Notes under the pieces: generated by a model
Told to the model about the DNA's origin: nothing
The model's input: the letters and a program-made list of their open reading frames with translations, nothing else
The model's database searches: none
Assembly (NCBI RefSeq): GCF_001427865.1
Contig: NZ_LMHH01000001.1
Location: 2,232,001 to 2,296,000, forward strand
Direction of reading: 5' to 3'
Length of the DNA stretch: 64,000 nucleotides
DNA from: Altererythrobacter sp. Root672
GTDB taxonomy: Bacteria > Pseudomonadota > Alphaproteobacteria > Sphingomonadales > Sphingomonadaceae
Shown here: positions 1 through 14,434 of the stretch, piece after piece
Layout of the letters: every line of letters starts with the position of its first letter
Position numbering within the stretch: the first letter of the stretch is position 1
Made by a program: the position numbers and the translations under genes

Positions 1-1
1 C

Positions 2-514
2 CGCAACGCGTACGTCCCATTGCCTGAGCAAAAGCCCGTCCTGCGGGAGATCGAACTGCTCGTCGCCGAGCAACAGCGCAGGATCAGGTATTTCGTCGAA
101 GGCCAGCGTGACCGCCGTTCGAGCCAGGCGTTTGACGCCTCCTCGGAACTGAGAGTCCTGGTCCAGCGACTGGCAAACCAGTGGGGTATCGACGTCGAGA
201 TCGAAGAGATCGACCTTCCGTCCAAGCTTCCCCGACCCGTGCTGGAGAACATCGAACAGCTTGTGTCCGAAGCAACCGCCAACGCCGTTCGTCACGGGGC
301 CGCGCGACAGGTTCTCGTTCGCTTGTCAGGCGATTCCGATAAGCTCTCTTTGGTGATAAGGGATGACGGCAAGGGCATGGCCGACGGGAAGCTGGACAAG
401 GGTTCGAGTTCATTGCGCTCGCGGCTCGACAAGTTTGGCGGCAGCATGTCCATTGGCCGCGCGTTTCCCGGCCTGGAGATCACGATGAGCATTCCCATGC
501 GAGGCCGCGCGTGA
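2..514 (+). CDS. Sensor histidine kinase, C-terminal part (cut by window start)
   Basis: The frame is open from the left edge, so the true start lies upstream; a TTG at 20 is only an internal codon. About 170 residues are visible. The C-terminal half is a HATPase_c ATP-binding fold, with an N-box-like segment (EATANAVRHG) and a G1-box (DDGKGM), followed by a conserved SLRSRLDKFGG segment. This is typical of the NarL/DegS group of kinases, whose partners are LuxR-type regulators. The dimerisation/His region and any sensor domain are outside the window. The stop overlaps the next gene's GTG start by 4 nt, so the two are a coupled two-component pair. The input signal is unknown. Confidence 0.85.
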   Translation, partial: RNAYVPLPEQKPVLREIELLVAEQQRRIRYFVEGQRDRRSSQAFDASSELRVLVQRLANQWGIDVEIEEIDLPSKLPRPVLENIEQLVSEATANAVRHGAARQVLVRLSGDSDKLSLVIRDDGKGMADGKLDKGSSSLRSRLDKFGGSMSIGRAFPGLEITMSIPMRGRA

Positions 515-1149
515 ACCGGACAGTCGTCCTGTGCGACGATCATCCGCTGTTGCTTCAAGGCCTGGTCGATCTGTTGCGGGGCGCCGGGGGGTTCGACATT
601 CTCGATTCCACCACGAGCGGCCATCGGGCGCTGAGCCAGATCCGCAAGCTTCGGCCTGACATTGCCGTCCTCGACGTTTCGATGCCTGACATTGGCGGCC
701 TCGACATCCTGAGGGCCGTACATACCGAGCGCCTGGGAGTCCGCGTGGTCTTCCTCACGGCGACCATTCCCGGCAAGAAGGTCGCCGAAGCGCTGTCCTA
801 CGGGATCTGGGGGCTGCTAACCAAGGACTACGCCACCGAGCACTTTCTCGAATGCCTGGAGACGGTCGCCGCGGGCGAACGGTGGTTGCCCAAGAACCTG
901 CTCGAAAAGGTGGAACTGGACGAGGACCACGACATCGGCGCCCGGCTTGCCACGCTGACATTGCGCGAACTGGAGATCTCTCGCCTGGTGTGCCGCGGTT
1001 TGTCCAATCGCTCGATCGCGGCAGAGCTCGGTTCAGCCGAAGGAACGGTCAGCATCCACCTCGGGAACATCTATCGCAAGCTCGACATCTCCAGTCGGAC
1101 CATGCTCGCCTCGCTCCTCGTCCAGCATCACATGCTGACTGACGACTAG
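511..1149 (+). CDS. LuxR/NarL-family two-component response regulator
   Basis: A 212-residue protein with an N-terminal receiver domain (about 1-120): acidic pocket D9-D10, phosphoacceptor D55 in a VLDVSMPD motif, and K at the end of strand 5 (LLTKD). The C-terminal LuxR-type helix-turn-helix (about 145-205) has the usual LTLRELEISRLVCRGLSNRSIAAELG and GTVSIHLGNIYRKL segments, so it is a DNA-binding transcription factor. The GTG start overlaps the kinase stop (GTGA), which fixes the pairing. Its targets cannot be read from the sequence. The downstream membrane gene starts 2 nt after its stop and is probably co-transcribed. Confidence 0.92.
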   Translation: MNRTVVLCDDHPLLLQGLVDLLRGAGGFDILDSTTSGHRALSQIRKLRPDIAVLDVSMPDIGGLDILRAVHTERLGVRVVFLTATIPGKKVAEALSYGIWGLLTKDYATEHFLECLETVAAGERWLPKNLLEKVELDEDHDIGARLATLTLRELEISRLVCRGLSNRSIAAELGSAEGTVSIHLGNIYRKLDISSRTMLASLLVQHHMLTDD

Positions 1150-1151
1150 CG

Positions 1152-2174
1152 ATGGAAGCGACCGGGGACACCAAGTCCGCCTCCCCGGCAAGCGGGCGCT
1201 GGCGGTGGCTCAAGGCGGCGATTGGGGTTCTTTTCGGCGCCATTGCGCTGATCGTGCTTTGGCAGTCGGTCGACTATCGCGACGTCGCTGCCCATTTTGG
1301 CAAAGCTGCGGTGGCTCCGCTCATTGTCGGGCTAATCGCCTACGCGCTCGATTTCCTGCTCCGCGCTTACCGCTTCAAGATCCTGCTCGAAGGCACGCGG
1401 CACGAGATTCGCTTCCTCCCCACCGTGGCGCCCTTTGTCGCCAGCTTCGGCATCAACGACATCCTTCCCTTCCGCTTGGGCGACGGCTTTCGGGTTTTCT
1501 GGTTTCATGATCGCCTGAACCTGCCGCTGGGAAGAGTCCTGGGCGCGATGTTGCTCGAACGGCTGCTCGATCTCGTCACTATCGTGCTGCTGGCCTGCCT
1601 CGCCTTGATCGCCATCGATGTAGTGGTTTCGGACCAGGTGCTGGAGCGGCTTCGCTGGGTCATGATCGCGTGCTCGGTCGGCGGCGTCCTGGTCCTGTTC
1701 TCGCCGCTGGCGCTCCACCGCCTCGCCGGCCGCCTGCAACAATCGCCGCGGCGCGCGATCGCGCTGACAGGCAAGGGCATCGCGTCGATGTCGGACGCGA
1801 TCAAGGAAGCCGGCACGCTTGGCCGCATGAGCCGGCTGATCGCCTTCTCGCTGCTTATCTGGCTACTCGAGAGCGTAGCGGCCTTGGCCGTGTGGGTTAG
1901 CCTCGGCGGTCCGCTTGGCGAATGGCTCAAGCCGTTCTTCGCCTTTACCATCGCGATGCTGGGCACGCTGGTGCCGGCCTTGCCGGGGCACTTCGGCTCG
2001 TTCGACTACTTTGGCGTGCTGTCGTTCCAGGCCGTCGGGGTCGAGGCCGATTTCGCGGCAGCGGTGATCCTGCTGCTGCATCTCTTGCTGTGGTTGCCCA
2101 CTGCCCTCTTTGCGGTGGCGTGGCTGATCCTGGCGCCGAAAACCGGCAAGCGCGTTTTCAGGACAGCGTCTTGA
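1152..2174 (+). CDS. Flippase-like integral membrane protein (UPF0104 / LPG-synthase TM family)
   Basis: A 340-residue protein with about eight hydrophobic segments and the family pattern of the lysylphosphatidylglycerol-synthase TM region (AglD/UPF0104): a conserved RAYRFKILL motif near the second helix, then a FRLGDGFRVFW loop and a PALPGHFGSFDYF segment near the C-terminus. Family members move or act beside polyprenyl-linked sugars and lipids, but the substrate here is not defined. It follows the response regulator by 2 nt. Its 3' end overlaps the convergent epimerase gene by 17 bp. Its position opposite a polyprenyl-sugar operon makes a role in moving such a lipid plausible but unproven. 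Confidence 0.75.
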   Translation: MEATGDTKSASPASGRWRWLKAAIGVLFGAIALIVLWQSVDYRDVAAHFGKAAVAPLIVGLIAYALDFLLRAYRFKILLEGTRHEIRFLPTVAPFVASFGINDILPFRLGDGFRVFWFHDRLNLPLGRVLGAMLLERLLDLVTIVLLACLALIAIDVVVSDQVLERLRWVMIACSVGGVLVLFSPLALHRLAGRLQQSPRRAIALTGKGIASMSDAIKEAGTLGRMSRLIAFSLLIWLLESVAALAVWVSLGGPLGEWLKPFFAFTIAMLGTLVPALPGHFGSFDYFGVLSFQAVGVEADFAAAVILLLHLLLWLPTALFAVAWLILAPKTGKRVFRTAS

Positions 2175-3177
2175 TGAGGCGCAGCACGCCTTGCCGCAGC
2201 GGCGCACGATGGGCGGTTTCCGCCTCTCCCCGCCCCGCGTGTTGCACGAACCAGTCATAGCTTTGCATCAGCATGGACTGGTTCGAATGAGCCGGCTTCC
2301 ACCCCAGCGCCAGCAGCGGCTGAATGTCGAAGAAGCAGTCGCAGTGATAGGTCTGATAATGCCAAGGCGTCAGCCGCGACAGGCCAAGGGCGTGTAGAAC
2401 CCGAAGCGACTGCACCGCCGGCCAGACCGGCAGCGATCTGACCTGCGAAGAGGTGCCGGCGTGCGCGATGAGCGCTTCGAGATCTTGGCGGAGTGTGCCG
2501 AAACTATCGGTCCCGACGTTGAAGGTGCCCTCCAGCCTCCGCTTCAACGCCAGCGAATGGAACGCGACCAGATCGTCGACATGGATGAATTGCTGGCGCT
2601 GCGCGCCGTTGCCGATGATCGGAATCGAGGCTCCGTCCCGGATCCAATCGAACAGGATATGGAAGATACCGAGGCGGCCTGGACCAAGGGTCACTCTCGG
2701 GCGGATGGTCGTTAGCGGGATCGAGGCTTCCTCAGTGACCTGCTTCATCGCGATCTCACCGGCGAGCTTCGAGCGGCCATAGTCCTCGATCGGACGCGGC
2801 ACGACGTAGCTGGTGATCGCTCCGGGCCCGGTCAGTCCATAGACGGCCGTGGTGCTGAGATGGATGATGTGCCCGACATTGCCACGTGCCGCTGCCGCGG
2901 CGACGTTTCGCGTGCCATCGCGATTAACCTCGTAGTACCGCTGCCCCGCGGCGGACTGGGCTACCAGGGCCGCGTTGTGGTGGACCACGTCCACGCCGGC
3001 CATAGCGCGGGCCACGGCGGCTTCATCGGTGATCGAGCCGCGCTGGAATTCTATTTCCGGGAGCCGGGCCGGATCGTCGACAAGGTCCAACACTCGGACC
3101 CGTTCTCCCTGCATCGCCAGCTTTCGGGCAATCGCGCCGCCGATGAATCCCGTGCCGCCGGTGATCAAGTGAAGCAT
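2158..3177 (-). CDS. NAD(P)-dependent epimerase/dehydratase (extended SDR)
   Basis: A 339-residue extended short-chain dehydrogenase. The Rossmann motif GGTGFIG is at 7-13 and the catalytic pair is Y133xxxK137 (DYGRSK), with the upstream Ser/Thr of HLSTTAVYG at about 108-110. It is the last gene of the seven-gene minus-strand operon, 9 bp after the GMC oxidoreductase. In context, the oxidoreductase plus this SDR could carry out a two-step oxidation/reduction (epimerisation) of a lipid-linked sugar, as DprE1/DprE2 do in mycobacteria. The SDR family is certain; that role is inference. Confidence 0.85.
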   Translation of the reverse strand: MLHLITGGTGFIGGAIARKLAMQGERVRVLDLVDDPARLPEIEFQRGSITDEAAVARAMAGVDVVHHNAALVAQSAAGQRYYEVNRDGTRNVAAAAARGNVGHIIHLSTTAVYGLTGPGAITSYVVPRPIEDYGRSKLAGEIAMKQVTEEASIPLTTIRPRVTLGPGRLGIFHILFDWIRDGASIPIIGNGAQRQQFIHVDDLVAFHSLALKRRLEGTFNVGTDSFGTLRQDLEALIAHAGTSSQVRSLPVWPAVQSLRVLHALGLSRLTPWHYQTYHCDCFFDIQPLLALGWKPAHSNQSMLMQSYDWFVQHAGRGEAETAHRAPLRQGVLRLIKTLS

Positions 3178-3186
3178 CGGCCGGGC

Positions 3187-4629
3187 TCAGGAGAACTGGC
3201 GTTCGATGGCGTCGAGGGCATTGCGGTGAGCAACGGCCATGACGGTCCCCTGCGGGTTCACCACAGTGGGCGTGCACAGCAGCGAGGCGTCCGCAATGTA
3301 GAGACCGTCAGTGCCGTGCACCTTCCCGAACGAATTGGCCGCGGTGCGCCTGTCGTTCTCCCCCATTGGGCAGGATGAGAAGACATGAACTGACGTAACG
3401 CTTCCGTCCGAGGCACTCAGGCTGGAGGGCATGAATTCCAGGCTCCGTGTCGAGGCGACGTCGGCATAGCCCGCCACGCACGGCATCACGCGAACCGCAT
3501 CGGCCGCGCGCAGCGCCTCGCACAGCTTGCGCAGCCCGGTTCCCAGCACGTGGAGGTCGTTCGCGGTGAAGCCTATCCGGACCAACGGATCGGAAAAGCC
3601 AGGCAGGTTCCGTACGGTCGCTGTCCCGCCAGTCGTCTGCACGTAGTAGATGCCCATGCGCCGCGAGCGTTCGTGGACCAGGTCCCAAGCACCCTCTCGG
3701 TCGGACAAGGCCACGCCCAGCATCGGCCGCTTGCTGATGGAACACCCCATGCCGAAGGAGGGTTCGAATTCCTTGATCTGGTGAACCGGATCCAGGTCGC
3801 CCGCGAAATTCACGTCGCGCTCAAATTCGGCGACCACTTTGACCATCGGGTGAAAGCGCAGGCTGTTGCCGACGTTGTGCGTGAACCCGGATCGCCTCAA
3901 GAGCGCGGGAGTCTGCACTGCCCCGCAGGCCACGAACACTCGCTGCGCCCGAATCTCGATCGGCCGCGAGTGCCCGGCCTCGTCTTTCGCGCTGCCGGTC
4001 GCGAGCCAGGCGCCCGATACCCTGCGAAGGCGATCGATACGTGTGCGAGCGTTCAGACGCCCGCCTTTCTGCAGGAAGCGCCGGACGAATGTCTCCGACA
4101 TCGACTGCCTGCGACCGCCCTTCCCGTCCGGATCATAGCTGAACAGCCGCGGCGCTTCGATCGATTGCCAGCCAAGCGCCTGTGCGCCGCGCTGCAATTG
4201 CTGCGACATCTCGGACGGCGCGCCCGGAACATATTCGACCCGCGCGATCTCCTCGCACGCCGCGAAGTGGGCCTTCATCGAGTTGAAGCCGAGGTTCTCG
4301 ACACCGAAGTCCTTGCGCCAACTGTCGAGAATGAACTCCGGCGCCCGACGGTAGAGGCCGCGATTGACCTCGCTTCCGCCGCCCACGCAGCGTCCTTCCA
4401 CCCAGGCCAGCTTCTGCCGCCCCAAGGCGACGCTGACGCCCCCGTTGCGATACTTGCGAAGCATCTCCTCACGGGAAAAATGCGCGGCAGAATCGAGCGA
4501 AAGATGCTCGCCCTCCTCGACCATGAGCACGTCATGCCCCGCCTCGACCAGCATGGTCCCGCTGACACATCCGCCCGGACCCGATCCTATGACAAGGATT
4601 CCCGCGGTCATGGCGTCCGGCTTGCTCAT
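3187..4629 (-). CDS. GMC-family FAD-dependent oxidoreductase
   Basis: A 480-residue flavoprotein. The FAD-binding GxGxxG motif (GSGPGG) is at 15-20, followed by an acidic cofactor-binding end (MVEEGEHL). A GMC C-terminal domain has the candidate catalytic His415 (HVFSSCPMG) and Asn458 (VVNPQGT), matching the GMC His/Asn pair. No signal peptide is seen. It overlaps the upstream small protein by 4 nt (ATGA), which suggests a two-subunit enzyme like other bacterial GMC dehydrogenases with small partners. The substrate is unknown. The operon context suggests a sugar or polyprenyl-linked sugar alcohol. Confidence 0.85.
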   Translation of the reverse strand: MSKPDAMTAGILVIGSGPGGCVSGTMLVEAGHDVLMVEEGEHLSLDSAAHFSREEMLRKYRNGGVSVALGRQKLAWVEGRCVGGGSEVNRGLYRRAPEFILDSWRKDFGVENLGFNSMKAHFAACEEIARVEYVPGAPSEMSQQLQRGAQALGWQSIEAPRLFSYDPDGKGGRRQSMSETFVRRFLQKGGRLNARTRIDRLRRVSGAWLATGSAKDEAGHSRPIEIRAQRVFVACGAVQTPALLRRSGFTHNVGNSLRFHPMVKVVAEFERDVNFAGDLDPVHQIKEFEPSFGMGCSISKRPMLGVALSDREGAWDLVHERSRRMGIYYVQTTGGTATVRNLPGFSDPLVRIGFTANDLHVLGTGLRKLCEALRAADAVRVMPCVAGYADVASTRSLEFMPSSLSASDGSVTSVHVFSSCPMGENDRRTAANSFGKVHGTDGLYIADASLLCTPTVVNPQGTVMAVAHRNALDAIERQFS

Positions 4630-5003
4630 GCCGCGACCTTGTCGGTTTCAACGTCACCGTCGTCCTGGACCTGCGAATAGAGCCCGAACGCGGTGAAGGT
4701 CGTGTAGAAAGCGATCATCGACCGGCGAAAGCCGACGCGGCTCTCCCGCCAGGCCGCGACTTGCGCTTGCCGGCCTGGATGATCGAGCCGGTGAAAGCGA
4801 GTGCCGCGCAAAGGCACGCTCCACCAGTCGAACAGGACGGCGAGCCAGCGAAAGCCCACACGAAGGTAGTCGGGCATGACCTCGACGGTCTCCCGCACGT
4901 AGTGGCACACAACCGCGCGGTCGGCGACGCTGGCGGCCGGGCACATCTCGATAGCGATTGTGTCGACCAACGCGTCCGTCGCTCGGTCCGCTGCCTTACG
5001 CAT
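4626..5003 (-). CDS. Small protein coupled to GMC oxidoreductase (putative accessory subunit)
   Basis: A 125-residue protein, mostly helical by composition, with no signal peptide or clear TM segment. It has a conserved-looking core (MPDYLRVGFRWLAVLFDW, then RFHRLDHPGR and a C-terminal FYTTFTAFGLYS). Similar short helical proteins accompany bacterial GMC oxidoreductases, but I cannot name a family with certainty. The start overlaps the end of the HAD gene by 8 nt, and the stop overlaps the oxidoreductase start by 4 nt. Such tight coupling is usual for subunits of one complex. Confidence 0.6.
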   Translation of the reverse strand: MRKAADRATDALVDTIAIEMCPAASVADRAVVCHYVRETVEVMPDYLRVGFRWLAVLFDWWSVPLRGTRFHRLDHPGRQAQVAAWRESRVGFRRSMIAFYTTFTAFGLYSQVQDDGDVETDKVAA

Positions 5004-5691
5004 GGCCGACCTCCGCCAGGATGGGAGCGAATACGCGGTCGCGGAAGTCCCGGAAGGTGGGTGAGCGGTCGTTCTTCCGGAACGACCGGATCAAGGTCGG
5101 CACCGAGATGGCGCGCGCGGCCTCCCAATCGCGATCGAACCGGTCACCGACGACGATGGCCTGATCGGGAGAGGTCGCAGTCCGATCAAGTATGAGTTGC
5201 AACCCTGCCGGATCCGGCTTGAAGCGATTGACCGCCGGGTCGGACGAGCAGACCGCTAGATCGGCCTTCAGTTCCAAGGTCGCAAGCTTCGGCTCCACCG
5301 GATAGTCGGACCAGGCCGCGATCGTGCGCCCATTCCGCTTCAAGGCGGAAAACAGCTCGGACGCCCCGCGCGTCCTGCGGCGTCTCAGGCGCGCCAGCGG
5401 CTCCTGCTCGATCCAGCGTTCGACGATCGAGCGAACATGCTCTTCGCTGCACCCACGGTCTTTGGCCGTGCGACGAAACTGTTCGTTGGAGACGCCGACA
5501 GATCGGGCGTCGCCAAGGCTTTCCCTGACTTTGCGGAAAGTCGACAGGACGCGGATCGTATCGAGCGTGCGCTGCTGCAAACTGTCTGCGATCAGGGCGC
5601 GCGCCATATCCAGCCGCAAGGGCCACTGATCGTAGAGTGTGCCATCCACGTCGAAGATGACCAGCTTGATGCCCGACCAGTCGACCCGCAT
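4996..5691 (-). CDS. HAD-superfamily hydrolase (phosphatase)
   Basis: A 231-residue HAD protein. Motif I is DVDGT, with nucleophile D14 and acid/base D16. Motif II is the AWSDYP segment, motif III a Lys in NRFKPDP, and motif IV GDRFDRDWEAA. The cap is helical (C1 type). It probably removes a phosphate from a small or lipid-linked phosphosugar. It lies 3 bp after the UbiA prenyltransferase, which matches the need for a phosphatase after a phosphoribosyl-type transfer to polyprenyl phosphate. The substrate is inferred from context only; HAD sequences alone do not show specificity. Confidence 0.85.
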   Translation of the reverse strand: MRVDWSGIKLVIFDVDGTLYDQWPLRLDMARALIADSLQQRTLDTIRVLSTFRKVRESLGDARSVGVSNEQFRRTAKDRGCSEEHVRSIVERWIEQEPLARLRRRRTRGASELFSALKRNGRTIAAWSDYPVEPKLATLELKADLAVCSSDPAVNRFKPDPAGLQLILDRTATSPDQAIVVGDRFDRDWEAARAISVPTLIRSFRKNDRSPTFRDFRDRVFAPILAEVGHA

Positions 5692-5694
5692 GGG

Positions 5695-6690
5695 TTAACC
5701 TCCGGCCCCCTTCATCTCGACAGGCGTGAAAGTGCGCTCGGTCAGTTGGCGCAATTCCGGAATGTCCGCAAAGGACAGCAGCAGCAGAGCGAGAGCCGTG
5801 ACCATCAGCATGGTCATCAGGCGCCGTGAACGGAACATCCTCTCGGGCCGTTGCGCGATCGAATCCTTCATCATCGCCAGCCAGAAATAGCATCCGAACA
5901 GACCCACGATGAAGGGAAACGCCAGGAGAAACTCGAGCCGGTACTTGATCAGGAACACGCCGACGAAGAACGACGAGACCATCGCGTAGACCAGGCAGCT
6001 GACCGTCAGGCTTTCCGCCGTGTAGCCGCTGAACGATCGGCGGTAGCTTTGCAGCGTCGCGAGCCCTTCGCTTGCGACGATATCGCGATACTCGGACAGG
6101 CGCTTCGATCCCATCAGGAACGCCCCACCGAACCAATAGGCCAGAAGCAAGCTGAGCGGCGGGAGGCTGGTCTGGTCGATCATCAGCCAGCCGAGAGTCA
6201 GCCGTATCGGGTTGTTGACCGATTCAGAGATCACATCGACGAATGGCCGGTCCTTCGACCGGATCGGGCGGACGTTGTAGATCAGCCCAGAGATCAGGAA
6301 CGCTGCCGAGGCGAGGAAGAAATAGCCACCCAGCGCCTTGGCGAGCACCATGCCGAGCACGGCGAAAATCAGGTATTCCGCCGTGACCAGAGCTGGCGAG
6401 AGCGAGCAGGCGACAGCCGCCCGGCGCGATTTTGTCGGATGGTGGGCGTCGAACTCCCGATCCAGCCATTCGTTGATCACGTAGTTCGCCGAAGCGATGG
6501 CGATCGCCGACAACAAGCCAACCGGAACCTTCCACACGGCATCGGCCAATGACGGCTCGCGCAGCGTGTAGGCCAGGACAATACCCGGCAGAATGAAGAC
6601 GTGCTTGGTGATGTGATCGAAGCGCGCGAGCGACAGGTAATCGCTCAGCTTCGATTGCCGCGACGCGACGGGCGCGATGACCTCAGTCAC
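5695..6690 (-). CDS. UbiA-family prenyltransferase (decaprenyl-phosphate phosphoribosyltransferase-like)
   Basis: A 331-residue polytopic protein with about nine TM helices. The first Asp-rich motif is at about 73-81 (NEWLDREFD), followed by AHHPTKSRR. That form, with HP-K just after the DxxxD, is typical of UbiA members that transfer phosphoribose from PRPP to polyprenyl phosphate (Rv3806c type) rather than quinone prenyltransferases. A second motif region (KDRPFVDVISESVNNPIR) follows. It overlaps the upstream GT-C-like gene by 8 nt. A quinone- or heme-pathway UbiA is less likely given these neighbours. Confidence 0.8.
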   Translation of the reverse strand: MTEVIAPVASRQSKLSDYLSLARFDHITKHVFILPGIVLAYTLREPSLADAVWKVPVGLLSAIAIASANYVINEWLDREFDAHHPTKSRRAAVACSLSPALVTAEYLIFAVLGMVLAKALGGYFFLASAAFLISGLIYNVRPIRSKDRPFVDVISESVNNPIRLTLGWLMIDQTSLPPLSLLLAYWFGGAFLMGSKRLSEYRDIVASEGLATLQSYRRSFSGYTAESLTVSCLVYAMVSSFFVGVFLIKYRLEFLLAFPFIVGLFGCYFWLAMMKDSIAQRPERMFRSRRLMTMLMVTALALLLLSFADIPELRQLTERTFTPVEMKGAGG

Positions 6691-8260
6691 CTTGAGCGCT
6701 TTCGCTGCCGTCGGAAACCAGGCGATAGACCCTGCCGTCGGCGAAGTCCCCGACCAACGTCACCGGCAGGGAGGCGGCAACAACCTGCTCGTCCGCCAAG
6801 TAGAACCGCCAGTCGATGCCGTCGAAGAACACGATGGCGATCTCGCCTGAGTTCGCTTCTTCCCGGATCCGTCCGAGTTGTTTCTCCAGCGGATTGCCGG
6901 GCTCAGGCAGGTTGGTGCGCAACTGCTTCTCGTGTGGGCTGAACCCGGCAGTCCGCCCGGTCATGTAGGCGATCACGTCAGGCGCGTTCGAATAGATGCG
7001 CGTTCCGGCCGGGAGCGTCCTGACCTTGGCCATCGTGGGCGAGTTGCGCCACTGGATCGACTGGAAGCCATAGCCCTCACGAGCCACTTCGATAGTGCGC
7101 GAGCTTGTCCTGACCAGGTGGCCGGCGAGGACCACAACGGAGAGCGCGGCGAGGCCATAGAGAGCCACGCGCTCGACGAGGACGTCTCGCGTCAGCTTCG
7201 AAGCCTCGATCGACACCAGCATGACCAGGAGCGCGTAAGCCGGGAAAGCGTATCGGCCCGTCAGGCTGAGATTGGCCTCGATCGAAACCGACAGGCCCAC
7301 GAAGGCCAGGTAGAAGACGAAGAAGGCCCCGAGGATGAGCGGCAGCGAAATCGCCGCGTCGTCAACTCCAGCTTCCGGGTCACGGCGCAACTGACGCGCA
7401 GTGAGTAACCAGCGCCAGGCGGCAAAGCAGATCACGGTCAAGACCGCGAGAAAGCGTATCGAGAAGGGAGCCGGTTTCGGCAGGACCCATGCCGCCATTG
7501 CCCCGGCGCTGGCGCGCCACTCTGCCGGACCCATCGTCCCGTAGAACCAGAGATCGCGACCGATCGAACGTCCTACTTCCAACTGGCTGATCACGACCCA
7601 GGTGAAGAACAGGACTCCGCTCAACCCACCCAGGATGGCGATATCCTTGATCTTCGCCGCGAGCGCTCTCCCAGGAACGAGCAGGATCACACAAGCGATC
7701 GCCGCGCCGAGCGGGGGCATGGTGAAGCGGGTCAGCGAACCGACGGCAATCAAGAGCGCCGAAATGATGAGCCAGGAAAGCCGCTCGCTCTCGAAGTAGT
7801 TCAGGATCGCCCACAGGGTCAGCAACACACACAGCAGGAACGGCGGTTCCGACAACGCGCCAGTATGAAGTGTGACGAATTGAGGCGAGAATGCGATCAG
7901 GGCCGTTCCTGCGAAGGCAAACACCCATCCCTTGGTAGCCCGGGCGATGAGCGCAAAGACCAGGCTGACATTGGCGACTATGAAGATCGCCGCGAAGAAC
8001 ATCGCCACTTGGTCAAAGGTGAAGCCCAGGGCCCGCCCGCCGACGAGCAGCCAGTGGTACATCGGCGCATCGAACCCGACCGGGCTGAGACCCATGTAGC
8101 GAGTGCTGTCGATGTAGATGCCAATGCCCTGCCAGGTGTTCGCTATGAACAAGCCGATCGAGGGGATCAGCACTGCCAGCCACGCCAGAATCAGCTGCCG
8201 GTTGGTGGCGCTACTGTCGCGGCTTCGAGTGGATGCCTGCGTGGGGAAGAGCGTAGCCAT
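6683..8260 (-). CDS. Polytopic membrane protein, probable GT-C glycosyltransferase
   Basis: A 525-residue protein with ten or more hydrophobic helices, then a soluble C-terminal domain of about 120 residues. An acidic residue in the first periplasmic loop (YIDSTRYMGL) and the overall layout resemble GT-C/PMT-like transferases, which use polyprenyl-phosphate-linked sugars as donors. No motif is strong enough to name a family. The start overlaps the aminotransferase stop by 1 nt and the stop overlaps the UbiA start by 8 nt, so it belongs to the same operon. If the operon makes a polyprenyl-phospho-pentose, this is the natural candidate to transfer it. Confidence 0.65.
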   Translation of the reverse strand: MATLFPTQASTRSRDSSATNRQLILAWLAVLIPSIGLFIANTWQGIGIYIDSTRYMGLSPVGFDAPMYHWLLVGGRALGFTFDQVAMFFAAIFIVANVSLVFALIARATKGWVFAFAGTALIAFSPQFVTLHTGALSEPPFLLCVLLTLWAILNYFESERLSWLIISALLIAVGSLTRFTMPPLGAAIACVILLVPGRALAAKIKDIAILGGLSGVLFFTWVVISQLEVGRSIGRDLWFYGTMGPAEWRASAGAMAAWVLPKPAPFSIRFLAVLTVICFAAWRWLLTARQLRRDPEAGVDDAAISLPLILGAFFVFYLAFVGLSVSIEANLSLTGRYAFPAYALLVMLVSIEASKLTRDVLVERVALYGLAALSVVVLAGHLVRTSSRTIEVAREGYGFQSIQWRNSPTMAKVRTLPAGTRIYSNAPDVIAYMTGRTAGFSPHEKQLRTNLPEPGNPLEKQLGRIREEANSGEIAIVFFDGIDWRFYLADEQVVAASLPVTLVGDFADGRVYRLVSDGSESAQGD

Positions 8261-9732
8261 CAGCCAAATATTCGCTTGATGTTCTTGGCAACGAAGCGGA
8301 CCGTGGCATCCGCAATCCCGCGCCCGAGAACGTCGTCCAGCGCATCGACCAGCCGATCGACTTGCGCTTCATCGACGATGTAGGGTGGCATGAAGTGCAG
8401 CACTTCACGCGCGCCCGGCTGGAAGTGCGCCAGGATCGAGTGCCGCTCGAACAGTTCGCGAGTCAGCGCGCCAATCAATACCGTTTGATAGGTCACGAAC
8501 ACCGGGTTCTTGCGAATGTCGACCAGTTTGGCCGCAAGCTCCTCGCCGAAGTTCAGGCGCACCGCCTGGAAACAGCCTTTGCCCCTGAGCTCGACGATGG
8601 TGTGCGGGTACTTGATCCTCAGGCGCGCTAGACCGGCTTTCAGGTGCTCGCCGATGCGGCCCGCGCGTTCGATCAGCCGCTCGCCTTCGAGGATGTTGAG
8701 CGTCTCGATGGCAACGGCACAGGACTCGCCCATCCCGCTGAAGCTCGAGCTGTGGAGGTTGCAGTCGTTCTTGCTGCCGTAGGCGTTGTCCCACAGCGCC
8801 TGCGAGGTGACCATCGCCGCCATCTCGCGTTTGCCGCCGCCCAGGGTCTTGCCCATGGTGACGATGTCGGGAACGGCCTCGGAGTGCTGGAAGGCGCAGA
8901 ACTGCCCGGTCCGCCCCATGCCGACCTTGATCTCGTCGAAGATCGTCAGGATGTCCGCTTCGCGGCAGATGCGCACGAATTCCTCAAGGTAACCCGGCGG
9001 CGGGGTCTCGCACGATGTGCCGCGGATCGTCTCGACGATCCCGGCGATGATGCGGTTCCCCTTGGCCTGGGTCTCCCGCTGAATGGCTTCGCGCACGGAT
9101 TCGATATTGCCGAATTCGGCGTAGATCATGTTCTCCTTGGGAACGCCCAGGAGGAAACCGGTCTGGACGTCGGTCGCCGTGGTCAGCGACAGCGCTCCGT
9201 GGGTCTTGCCGTGGAACGCACCCCGCATGCACAGGAACTTGGTCTTGCCCTTGGGCGTCTGCACCCGCTCCGCGAGCTTCATCGCCGCCTCGTTGGCCTC
9301 GGCGCCCGACACGGCCAGGAAGGAAACGTCGAGCGGTTCGGGCAGCATGCGCGAAATATTGTAGGCCAGCGCACCCTGCAGCTTGTGCGGGGCGATCTTG
9401 ATGCAATCGATCACATGCTCGTCGTGGCATCGGCGTTCGGCGGCGATGATCCGCGGGTGATTGTGACCCAGCCCGAGAACTCCGAACCCGCCTGAGAAAT
9501 CCAGGATCTTGCGGCCATCGGTGAGGGTAATCTCAGCGCCCTGCGCGCTAGCGATATCGATGTCCCGCAGGCCCAGAATATCGAACACCTGCAACATGTA
9601 CTTGTTCAGGTGCTGCGAATAGAGCTCCATTGCCGCTGCGTTGTCGAGGCCCAGGCACTGATCGAGGGTCAACAGGCTCTTACCGACAAGCCGGTCCCGT
9701 CGCATTTCTGGTGCTCTACCGATTGCCGTCAC
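8260..9732 (-). CDS. Class III (PLP-dependent) aminotransferase
   Basis: A 490-residue fold-type I aminotransferase. Typical class III segments are visible: FSGGFGVLGLGHNHP near the start, VSGAEANEAAMKLA, the FDEIKVGMGRTGQF loop with the Asp that contacts the PLP ring, and MGKTLGGG with the probable Schiff-base Lys. It is first in the minus-strand operon, with about 215 bp of intergenic DNA upstream for a promoter. The amino acceptor is unknown; candidates are acylated amino acids or an amino-sugar substrate of the downstream pathway. Confidence 0.85.
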   Translation of the reverse strand: MTAIGRAPEMRRDRLVGKSLLTLDQCLGLDNAAAMELYSQHLNKYMLQVFDILGLRDIDIASAQGAEITLTDGRKILDFSGGFGVLGLGHNHPRIIAAERRCHDEHVIDCIKIAPHKLQGALAYNISRMLPEPLDVSFLAVSGAEANEAAMKLAERVQTPKGKTKFLCMRGAFHGKTHGALSLTTATDVQTGFLLGVPKENMIYAEFGNIESVREAIQRETQAKGNRIIAGIVETIRGTSCETPPPGYLEEFVRICREADILTIFDEIKVGMGRTGQFCAFQHSEAVPDIVTMGKTLGGGKREMAAMVTSQALWDNAYGSKNDCNLHSSSFSGMGESCAVAIETLNILEGERLIERAGRIGEHLKAGLARLRIKYPHTIVELRGKGCFQAVRLNFGEELAAKLVDIRKNPVFVTYQTVLIGALTRELFERHSILAHFQPGAREVLHFMPPYIVDEAQVDRLVDALDDVLGRGIADATVRFVAKNIKRIFG

Positions 9733-12830: not shown

Positions 12831-13568
12831 TCAAGCTGATCTTGTCGAGGAGCGACGTCGGCGCGCGACCGAGATGCGTTTGTTTATCCGGTCCCGCCAC
12901 ATGTCGACGCGCCTGGCTAGCGTTCTCGGTGGTTGAGCGGCGAACCGGTCGTCGCCAATGTCCGATTCCAGCATCATTTCGAACAACGGGAATGGAAAAA
13001 CGCTGAGGTTGGGCACCCCGTGTTCCCAATGACGGTCGAGCTGGTCGTCGATGGGCCTGACGACATTGCGAAAGGTCTCCACGAAGATCGCTGCCGCTGG
13101 CTTGGTGATGACGTAGCCCTGGGTGCCGAACGCAAGATCGAGCAGTTCGATGATCGAGGTCGAACGGCGGACGAAGTTCCGTTCCCGCACGATGTAGCGT
13201 GCAGGGTATTTGTAATAGAGCCTCAGGTAGCGAATGCCGCGCTCGACCAGCGGCTGCCGCGCGAGTGCCGCCAGGAACTGCCAGTCGGGAACCACGTCAT
13301 CCTCAAGCACGATGTAAGCATCGTCATCGCTTTCGAGCAGCTGCTGCCAGATGGCATAGTGGCTCGAATAGCAGCCGAGTTCACCGGGCTTGAGCGGGCG
13401 GCCTTTGCGGCGGACGGCCTCCGCCTCGTCATAGTGCAGGCCCGGCGCGAGGCCGCGATGCGCGTCGAAAAACGTCCAGTCGAGCGCGTCTTCGGGTGCC
13501 GTGGCTGAAAATCGGGCACGGCGCTCGCTGGCCGTGTCGAGGCTGACAACGAGGACTTTCACTTTCAT
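12831..13568 (-). CDS. Glycosyltransferase family 25
   Basis: A 245-residue cytosolic glycosyltransferase. Typical GT25 pieces are LVVSLDTASERRARF at the N-terminus, ELGCYSSHYAIWQQLL, and YIVLEDDVVPDW with the ED/DD metal-binding motif. GT25 enzymes add galactose or related sugars in LPS and capsule synthesis. It is the last gene of the minus-strand exopolysaccharide operon and overlaps the upstream GT2 gene by 4 nt (ATGA). The sugar and acceptor are not readable from sequence. Confidence 0.85.
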   Translation of the reverse strand: MKVKVLVVSLDTASERRARFSATAPEDALDWTFFDAHRGLAPGLHYDEAEAVRRKGRPLKPGELGCYSSHYAIWQQLLESDDDAYIVLEDDVVPDWQFLAALARQPLVERGIRYLRLYYKYPARYIVRERNFVRRSTSIIELLDLAFGTQGYVITKPAAAIFVETFRNVVRPIDDQLDRHWEHGVPNLSVFPFPLFEMMLESDIGDDRFAAQPPRTLARRVDMWRDRINKRISVARRRRSSTRSA

Positions 13569-14434
13569 GAGCGAGCCACGCCCAACTTCTTCTTCAGCAC
13601 GCCCGTAACCCCGCGCGCCTTTGCGATCGCCAAGCTGTGTTCGAAGTAGCCGGCCCAGCTTCCGCTCAAGTCCCGGCGTATCGATGCAGCGGTCGCGCGC
13701 AGTTCGGCAATCAGCTCAGGCGGCATGTACCGCGCGTAACGGTCGACGAAGAACTCCAGGCCCTGGGCGCGCTTCAGCGACCGTGAACCGATGCGCTCGC
13801 CCTCATGTTGCCTCCATTCCACCAGCGGCTCCTCTACGACCGCATAGGCGGGGTCCGCGGCGATAAGGCGGAACAGCAGATCCCAGTCGTTGAACACACG
13901 GACCTTCGGGTCGAACCCGCCGGCCGCCAGGAATCGGTCCCGCGTGATGGCGAAGTTGCTTCCCGTCATGCCGCCCGGGACGCTGAAGAGCGACTTCTGG
14001 TCGAGGCCTTCCGGGAAGGAACGGATGCGATCTTCCCGCTCTGGGGAGCGTTCAACCAGGGTCGTCAGGATCAGGGACGCGCCGTCCCGAAGGGCGGTTT
14101 CGGCAGAGCGACGCAGGAATTCAGGCCGCCACAAGTCGTCATCGTCGAGGAACGCCAGCCAGTCACAGACTGCCAGCTGCGCGCCCAGGTTGCGTGAGCC
14201 GCAGGCTCCCGGCTCATTGCGGTTGACGACATAACGCAACGGGAAAGGAATGCCGGGCTGCAGGGCGGCGACCAGTTCGCGCGTCGTGTTTTCGTCCACG
14301 TCGCTGACGACGATCAGTTCTAGCGGCGGCATCGACTGCGCAGCGACACTCGAGATGGCCTCCGAAAGCAGGTCCGCGCGAAGGTGTGTCGGAATGATCG
14401 CGCTGAAGTACAGTTTGTCTATCGTGTCACACAT
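13565..14434 (-). CDS. Glycosyltransferase family 2
   Basis: A 289-residue GT-A enzyme. The N-terminal nucleotide-binding strand is FSAIIPTHLRADLL, the DxD region LAFLDDDDLW, and a GACGSRNLGA loop lies between them, as in GT2. A C-terminal amphipathic helical part may contact the membrane. The start overlaps the pyruvyltransferase stop by 1 nt (TAATG) and the stop overlaps GT25 by 4 nt, so it is translationally coupled on both sides within the exopolysaccharide operon. Confidence 0.87.
   Translation of the reverse strand: MCDTIDKLYFSAIIPTHLRADLLSEAISSVAAQSMPPLELIVVSDVDENTTRELVAALQPGIPFPLRYVVNRNEPGACGSRNLGAQLAVCDWLAFLDDDDLWRPEFLRRSAETALRDGASLILTTLVERSPEREDRIRSFPEGLDQKSLFSVPGGMTGSNFAITRDRFLAAGGFDPKVRVFNDWDLLFRLIAADPAYAVVEEPLVEWRQHEGERIGSRSLKRAQGLEFFVDRYARYMPPELIAELRATAASIRRDLSGSWAGYFEHSLAIAKARGVTGVLKKKLGVARS

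Follow-up and report, generated by a model that had tools for sequence, protein, structure and literature searches.

Pentofuranoses carried on polyprenyl phosphate have been described in several bacterial systems, which in the available passages of PMC11127046 comprise a UbiA synthase and a GT-C enzyme together with a flippase and a phosphatase domain of the HAD type. In those passages, one short-chain dehydrogenase/reductase (SDR) turns ribofuranose (Ribf) into xylofuranose (Xylf), candidate arabinofuranose (Araf) systems carry DprE1/E2 homologs, and a Pseudomonas aeruginosa pilin pathway is cited. The Azorhizobium Nod factor is arabinosylated via noeCHOP (PMC2443382 and PMC5080398, as far as their available passages go). 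Because these pentofuranose systems and noeCHOP have been described, a pathway of this kind outside the actinobacteria is already known, and the occurrence outside that group to which the initial annotation of the locus considered here drew attention is not new. This locus consists of seven closely packed minus-strand genes at 2158-9732 of a 64,000-nucleotide stretch from Altererythrobacter sp. Root672 (contig NZ_LMHH01000001.1, positions 2,232,001 to 2,296,000; hereafter the window), facing a short plus-strand operon. In our reading, for which we judge the chances to be about even, the products of the operon use 5-phosphoribosyl-1-pyrophosphate (PRPP) to build a modified pentofuranose on a polyprenyl phosphate carrier, a sugar that would be oxidized, then aminated and/or epimerized, and passed onto an envelope acceptor. 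A narrower version, held tentatively and at somewhat less than even chances, is that the route is under regulation and leads from PRPP to an amino-pentofuranose linked to polyprenyl phosphate, using GMC oxidation, class III aminotransferase amination, a flippase of the kind of the MprF flippase domain, and a GT-C enzyme, and that it evolved independently as a counterpart to the 4-amino-arabinose system. The genes are as follows.

8260-9732, minus strand: AT, a class III pyridoxal phosphate (PLP) aminotransferase and the first gene of the operon (PF00202, 8e-72).
6683-8260, minus strand: GTC, a putative polytopic membrane glycosyltransferase of the GT-C fold (PMT_2, 3.8e-13).
5695-6690, minus strand: UbiA-superfamily protein, the proposed polyprenyl-phosphate phosphoribosyltransferase (Pfam UbiA, NCBIfam, PRPP/Mg residues, structure model).
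4996-5691, minus strand: HAD phosphatase, proposed to remove the 5-phosphate (PF00702, 5.2e-15; FDVDGTLYD motif).
4626-5003, minus strand: small protein, a possible GMC small subunit (constant neighbor of GMC; weak Gluconate_2-dh3 profile match).
3187-4629, minus strand: GMC-family FAD oxidoreductase, the proposed oxidase of lipid-linked ribose (PF00732, 8.9e-27; PF05199, 3.4e-17).
2158-3177, minus strand: extended SDR of the epimerase/reductase type (PF01370, 5.3e-38).
1152-2174, plus strand: FLP, a flippase-like protein (LPG_synthase_TM; PF03706, 3.5e-32; TIGR00374 above its cut-off).
511-1149, plus strand: LuxR-type response regulator, upstream of FLP (PF00072, PF00196).
1-514, plus strand: histidine kinase, C-terminal part (HisKA_3, HATPase_c; a 548-amino-acid open reading frame in the genome).

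Gene calls and Pfam matches bear out the earlier observation that a UbiA protein, a HAD phosphatase, an FAD oxidoreductase, an SDR, and a GT-C-like protein lie in one tight minus-strand cluster. Adjacent genes overlap by 1 to 8 bases or are spaced by 3 to 9 bases, so that an operon is likely, and since the same seven-gene set recurs in other species, it is not a chance assembly. The histidine kinase, response regulator, and FLP genes form a plus-strand operon that converges on the seven genes, with the 3' end of FLP overlapping the end of the SDR gene; the kinase gene starts about 1.1 kb to the left of the window. This second operon, to which the initial annotation did not extend, is likewise part of the conserved cassette. 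Upstream of the seven-gene operon, a scan for promoters and terminators found nothing.

Among described systems, Citrobacter youngae O1 and O2, as presented in the available parts of PMC11127046, likewise have a UbiA-type phosphoribosyltransferase, a HAD, and a GT-C enzyme, and O2 also has a GalE-like SDR epimerase; in the window, the genes for the UbiA-type synthase, the phosphatase, and the GT-C enzyme are adjacent. The Citrobacter systems differ in that (i) HAD and UbiA are separate proteins here, (ii) an EmrE/ArnE-like flippase (called MATE in that paper) takes the place held here by the candidate FLP, and (iii) GMC, the small protein, the aminotransferase, and the two-component system are additional here. 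The Azorhizobium noeCHOP genes (PMC2443382, PMC5080398) similarly form a proteobacterial polyprenyl-phospho-pentose operon, but noeC, noeH, and noeO resemble mycobacterial genes, and the available passages of these two papers do not mention a GMC protein or an aminotransferase. In the tobramycin cluster, TobQ and TobB offer a parallel of another kind, a GMC oxidoreductase adjoining a class III aminotransferase in a sugar pathway, although the available text of PMC8304502 concerns a soluble antibiotic precursor, whereas a lipid-linked pentose is proposed here. The mycobacterial Rv3806c/Rv3807c/DprE1/DprE2 pathway shares the PRPP-dependent type of UbiA, with nine of ten mapped contacts and the same fold, and a similar oxidation followed by reduction is conceivable; it differs in that the window has a HAD for Rv3807c, a GMC for the ALO-type DprE1, an extended for a classical SDR, and an added aminotransferase. 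The arn system, which adds 4-amino-arabinose to lipid A, also has an amino-pentose on undecaprenyl phosphate, a GT-C transferase, and two-component control; its starting point is a UDP-sugar and its enzymes come from other families, so that the proposed amino-pentose system would be Arn-like in logic, not by descent. ArnT and ArnE are both mentioned in the available passages of PMC11127046. In the open-licence literature, we found no paper describing a form that combines GMC with an aminotransferase and FLP, none joining a GMC oxidoreductase, a phosphoribosyltransferase, and UbiA, and none on an amino-5-deoxy sugar with arabinofuranose and lipopolysaccharide. What is new is the variant, in which the oxidizing, amino-adding, and export steps look undescribed.

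The proposed route would begin with the transfer of 5-phosphoribose from PRPP onto polyprenyl phosphate by the operon UbiA, followed by removal of the 5-phosphate by HAD. GMC, together with the small protein, would then convert a single hydroxyl on the lipid-linked ribose into a carbonyl, which could be aminated by AT to give an amino-pentose and/or reduced by the SDR in the other configuration to give an epimer. The product would be flipped by FLP, or by a GtrA protein in the GMC loci that lack AT, and, outside the membrane, the GT-C enzyme would transfer the sugar. Control of the pathway probably lies with the kinase/regulator pair. The phosphatase and glycosyltransferase steps are suggested by protein family, fold, and gene order, while the oxidation, the amination or epimerization, and the flipping, as well as the carbonyl position and the acceptor, are what we infer from the gene set as a whole.

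The first step is the best supported. The genome (3.69 Mb) encodes three UbiA-family proteins, two of which exceed the curated cut-offs for heme o synthase (CtaB) and 4-hydroxybenzoate octaprenyltransferase (UbiA); the operon UbiA is the third. It carries the motif NEWLDREFDAHHPTK, and its best NCBIfam model is decaprenyl-phosphate phosphoribosyltransferase, which was matched by 38/38 members of an alignment made of the window protein and its relatives from 37 of 80 related loci. A profile of these 38 sequences found the Mycobacterium tuberculosis enzyme (8j8j, 4.8e-12) ahead of an archaeal UbiA (4tq3, 1.4e-6). The available passages of PMC10994848 name Arg22, Lys28, Tyr70, Asn73, Asp77, Lys87, Arg90, Gln135, Tyr138, Lys143, and Tyr157 as the PRPP/Mg contacts of Rv3806c and state that the UbiA superfamily does not share the phosphoribose sites of Rv3806c. 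We mapped ten of these contacts by alignment, leaving out Tyr157, and the equivalents of R22, K28, Y70, N73, D77, K87, R90, Y138, and K143 were invariant in all 38 sequences; at positions 28, 70, and 87, different residues are found in the CtaB and UbiA of this genome. A predicted model of the operon UbiA (predicted local distance difference test [pLDDT] score of 92.3) superposed on 8j8j with a Z of 28.0 and a root mean square deviation of 2.4 A over 284 residues, compared to a Z of 23.3 for the best archaeal UbiA, and by Foldseek TM-score 8j8j was also the best match (0.77 versus 0.64 or less for the others).

Four observations weigh against this assignment: (i) the operon UbiA scores 66.2 bits against a curated cut-off of 234 for the phosphoribosyltransferase model, and it is therefore best regarded as a relative with the same active site that lies outside that equivalog; (ii) 8j8k, a second entry for the M. 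tuberculosis enzyme, was found at 5.5e-5 and 25.8 bits, below the archaeal UbiA at 31 bits; (iii) the ribose contact Q135 is a glycine in 38/38 sequences; and (iv) by Foldseek E-value, the archaeal UbiA was slightly ahead of 8j8j in a near tie. That the protein is instead an ordinary quinone or heme O prenyltransferase with unrelated neighbors draws on the shared superfamily and on the NCBIfam score far under the cut-off. We consider this extremely improbable, given that a CtaB and a UbiA above their cut-offs are already present in the genome, that both lack three residues of the phosphoribose enzyme that the operon protein has, and that the gene neighborhood is conserved. A quinone or heme O role was rejected on residues, profiles, and the separate true CtaB and UbiA, and the grouping with Rv3806c rather than with such enzymes that had been predicted for this protein agrees with profile, residue, and structure comparisons. 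Sequence and model together make it probable that the operon UbiA is PRPP dependent, and the proposed transfer of phosphoribose from PRPP to polyprenyl phosphate is well supported.

To follow the gene set beyond the window, its genes were compared by blast and profiles with the 80 related UbiA loci (labeled L; genomes are labeled G). The nearest relatives of the operon UbiA are from Croceibacterium selenioxidans (92% identical, L004) and a Porphyrobacter metagenome-assembled genome (MAG; 90%, L005). In the counts, SDR and GMC matches needed 300 bits, FLP needed 40% identity, and GtrA had to lie within 6 kb of UbiA; weak hits were dropped, including nine Bradyrhizobium SDRs at 69-73 bits, an FLP match at 29% in L038, and a weak GtrA hit in L008. 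On this basis, HAD occurs in 54/80 loci and GMC in 21/80, and the small protein is found in exactly those 21 loci and in none of the other 59. Relatives of GTC are present in 20/21 GMC loci (absent from L028) and also in L015, whose contig ends too early for a GMC to be seen; the SDR is found in 17 loci, namely 16 with GMC plus L015. Every one of the 15 loci with AT also has GMC, so the 21 GMC loci divide into six with SDR and without AT, five with AT and without SDR (L007-L010 and L012), and ten with both. FLP at >=40% identity accompanies AT in 14/15 loci and occurs in 0/65 others, and the kinase and regulator occur together in 11/15 AT loci and 0/65 others. GtrA is found in 25 loci, one of which (L016) has AT, and the six GMC loci without AT (L014, L017, L018, L020, L025, and L028) all have GMC, the small protein, SDR, and GtrA. 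In L016, a GtrA-type set and an extra AT-GTC-FLP set surround a single UbiA-HAD-GMC. The fifteenth AT locus, without an FLP in the locus, is L006 (Novosphingobium sp. PhB165), where AT (6935-8332) has missing stretches and no HAD is found in the locus; an intact AT lies elsewhere in that genome (L115), beside FLP, HAD, and a kinase gene. The set is thus conserved together in relatives, and neither of the two outcomes that would have refuted the initial annotation, a UbiA grouping with quinone or heme O enzymes or a set not kept together, was obtained. From these patterns, one module appears to consist of AT, FLP, and the regulators and another of GMC with the small protein, with SDR optional alongside AT. 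The simplest explanation of the AT, SDR, and FLP pattern would be that the carbonyl made by GMC is aminated by AT or reduced by SDR, the aminated product needing another flippase.

In a tree of the window UbiA and 79 of the 80 loci (L038 was omitted for length), the GMC loci form one clade except for L028, a Mangrovicoccus MAG that lies far away and has its own GMC, small protein, and SDR; the GMC-less L013 and L021 fall beside and within the clade. The state "AT without SDR" needs four changes on this tree, three of which well-supported branches make unavoidable; repeated loss or gain of SDR is therefore probable. Of the five genomes whose AT locus lacks SDR, three had no SDR relative at E 1e-30 and two had a single one of 31% identity. 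A survey of the GTDB family (298 genomes) found strong UbiA relatives at E below 1e-90 in 10 genomes; AT (threshold E 1e-100) was present in 4 of the 298, and these 4 were also the ones with GMC (threshold E 1e-60). The same UbiA family is also present in nine Bradyrhizobium loci (L042-L044, L046, L049, L050, L052, L054, and L058), with the distant SDR on the opposite strand, another hydrophobic open reading frame upstream, and no HAD match. It occurs as well in 14 loci of Lachnospiraceae and Solobacterium, mostly rumen or gut MAGs (L063, L066, L068, L069, L071-L073, L075, L076, and L078-L082), where HAD was matched in 12/14 and a GMC, AT, or SDR of the window's kind in 0/14.

Both domains of the GMC protein, N- and C-terminal, are present, along with the FAD motif, and H415 and N458, which we take to be the catalytic His and Asn, are invariant in 21/21 aligned sequences (the window and 20 loci). 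Among solved structures, those closest to its profile are pyranose, cholesterol, and cellobiose enzymes, whose main targets are ring or secondary hydroxyls. A simple scan of GMC and the small protein found no membrane segment or twin-arginine motif, so the oxidation would be placed in the cytoplasm. The small protein matched no Pfam family at E 0.001; one of its 20 members matched Gluconate_2-dh3 (PF13618) weakly at E 0.15, and hhalign gave a weak probability of 15.6% (P 0.0017) for the same family compared to 0.2-0.3% for four unrelated alignments, which is suggestive of a possible GMC small subunit. In the SDR, TGG.GFIG and Y133...K137 are invariant in 15/15 aligned sequences (the window and 14 loci), and the Epimerase family (PF01370) scores 131 bits while adh_short reaches 21.6, under its cut-off of 26.6. 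We take DprE1 to be an ALO-type oxidase and DprE2 to be a classical SDR; no SDR of the latter type was found in the operon, whose SDR is of the Epimerase kind. By these matches it is an extended SDR, as is ORF13, the GalE-like protein of the Citrobacter Xylf system in the available text of PMC11127046. In Novosphingobium sp. ST904, the GMC gene is split over two frames (L007:11697-13579), by a sequencing error or as a broken gene.

The earlier suggestion that the polytopic protein is GT-C-like agrees with its PMT_2 match and with the fit of its predicted model (pLDDT 85.7) to GT-C structures, namely oligosaccharyltransferases (Z up to 23.9), ArnT (20.2), AftB (19.5), and AftA (17.9); Foldseek ranked AftD first and ArnT third. 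The model thus points to a GT-C fold, and GTC is proposed as the user of the flipped polyprenyl-phosphate sugar. With a UbiA of the phosphoribosyltransferase type, a HAD, and this predicted fold, the genes fit a polyprenyl-phospho-pentose pathway, and the reading of a lipid-linked pentose made from PRPP is supported. Among the operon genes there is no EmrE/ArnE-like flippase, the remaining genome not having been searched for one, and FLP is proposed as the flippase in its place. In Aureimonas sp. AU22 (L012:13574-14686), FLP lies on the operon strand and is not convergent.

The aminotransferase scores 242.6 bits against PF00202 (cut-off 30.5). Its nearest models are PigE and putrescine aminotransferase, enzymes that act on aldehydes, and the NCBIfam PigE score is 260 bits, under the cut-off of 850. 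K295 and D266-E267 are invariant in 15 aligned sequences (the window, 13 loci, and one distant relative), and K295 is, from its position, presumably the PLP lysine. In the available part of PMC8304502, tobB (class III aminotransferase) is listed adjoining tobQ (GMC family, 6'-dehydrogenase). Given these family likenesses of AT and GMC and the tobramycin parallel, the carbonyl could be at C2 or C3 if AT accepts a ketone, or at C5 if GMC makes an aldehyde. Separately, in four Rhizobiales genomes, a related AT (35-39% identical) lies beside a distant SDR on a contig other than that of the UbiA cassette; this Rhizobiales AT-SDR pair was examined at L114:6394-7857 with its neighbor and at places in G304, G308, and G310, and also at L113.

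Two other assignments of these enzymes have to be weighed. The initial annotation proposed GMC in place of DprE1, and a fuller form of that idea is that GMC and SDR act as a DprE1/DprE2-type pair converting polyprenyl-phospho-ribose to the arabinose (or xylose) form, with AT and FLP acting elsewhere, for instance on the lipid acceptor of the GT-C enzyme. The six loci that have GMC, the small protein, SDR, and GtrA without AT fit such a pair, as do the remote position of L028 in the UbiA tree and the closeness of the GMC profile to pyranose and cholesterol oxidases. The substitution is also plausible because no match to PF04030, presumably the family carried by DprE1, was found in the genome; an ALO-family protein is likewise not found in 12/22 cassette-locus genomes (the 21 with GMC plus L015). 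However, it is found elsewhere in the other 10/22: a PF04030 search that covered 50 of the 80 loci gave matches in 13 genomes, those of L032, L047, and L048 and ten cassette-locus genomes, in which the match sits on a contig other than the cassette's. Mutual exclusion of GMC and DprE1-type proteins is therefore not shown by these matches. Furthermore, five loci retain GMC and AT but have no SDR, so a simple DprE1/DprE2 analog is not the whole story, and an FLP acting only on the acceptor would leave 13/14 AT-FLP loci without a candidate donor flippase near UbiA (two kinds counted). We regard the paired reading as unlikely; of the original proposal, replacement of DprE1 by GMC stands as possible, and the missing SDRs speak against it as a general rule.

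Alternatively, SDR could epimerize alone, as ORF13 does in C. youngae O2, while GMC and AT separately convert the primary 5-hydroxyl to a 5-amino group. According to the available passages of PMC11127046, ORF13 alone decides between Ribf and Xylf in O2, and the tobQ/tobB pair of PMC8304502 and the nearness of AT to PigE and putrescine aminotransferase point in the same direction. This is made improbable by the finding that, at the score used, the sole SDR without a GMC is that of L015, whose contig breaks off, and by the six GMC-SDR loci without AT, in which GMC would have no partner. The preferred route, with a carbonyl shared by AT and SDR, has its own difficulties. The ten loci with both AT and SDR need explaining if the two enzymes compete for one intermediate, and the likeness of AT to aldehyde-using enzymes and of GMC to pyranose and cholesterol oxidases means that a shared carbonyl is not required. 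L028 lacks a GTC of this kind and L006 a HAD in the locus, AT and GMC lie on different contigs in G273 (one of the four family genomes with both), and the co-occurrence counts are not independent because the GMC loci are mostly one clade, so that the Fisher values obtained from them do not amount to independent tests; the place of L028 outside it is unsure because of its long branch.

Beyond the cassette, two members of the genus that lack it, G079 and G240, conserve an ABC-F gene of the flank. The left-flank genes do not adjoin ABC-F in the stretches compared from these genomes (L135 and L136; the G240 contig ends early), so no insertion site is shown, and no ABC-F match was obtained in G199. 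On the far side of the ABC-F gene, the window has two glycosyltransferase genes at 12831-14434, one of family 25 and one of family 2, and the family 25 gene is kept near ABC-F in G147, a cassette-bearing member of the genus.

The addition of an amino group, which the initial annotation raised as an aside, may be the main point of this operon. If the proposed pathway is true, oxidation and amination would join the small set of known changes made to lipid-linked pentoses, and bacteria would have a second way to put an amino-pentose on the envelope, one whose first steps would be common to the amino-pentofuranose route and to mycobacterial arabinan synthesis. A GMC oxidase would then work near the role of the drug target DprE1, outside the DprE1 family. 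Some genomic UbiA proteins may likewise be PRPP enzymes rather than quinone enzymes, and the gene set is testable in culturable environmental Alphaproteobacteria.

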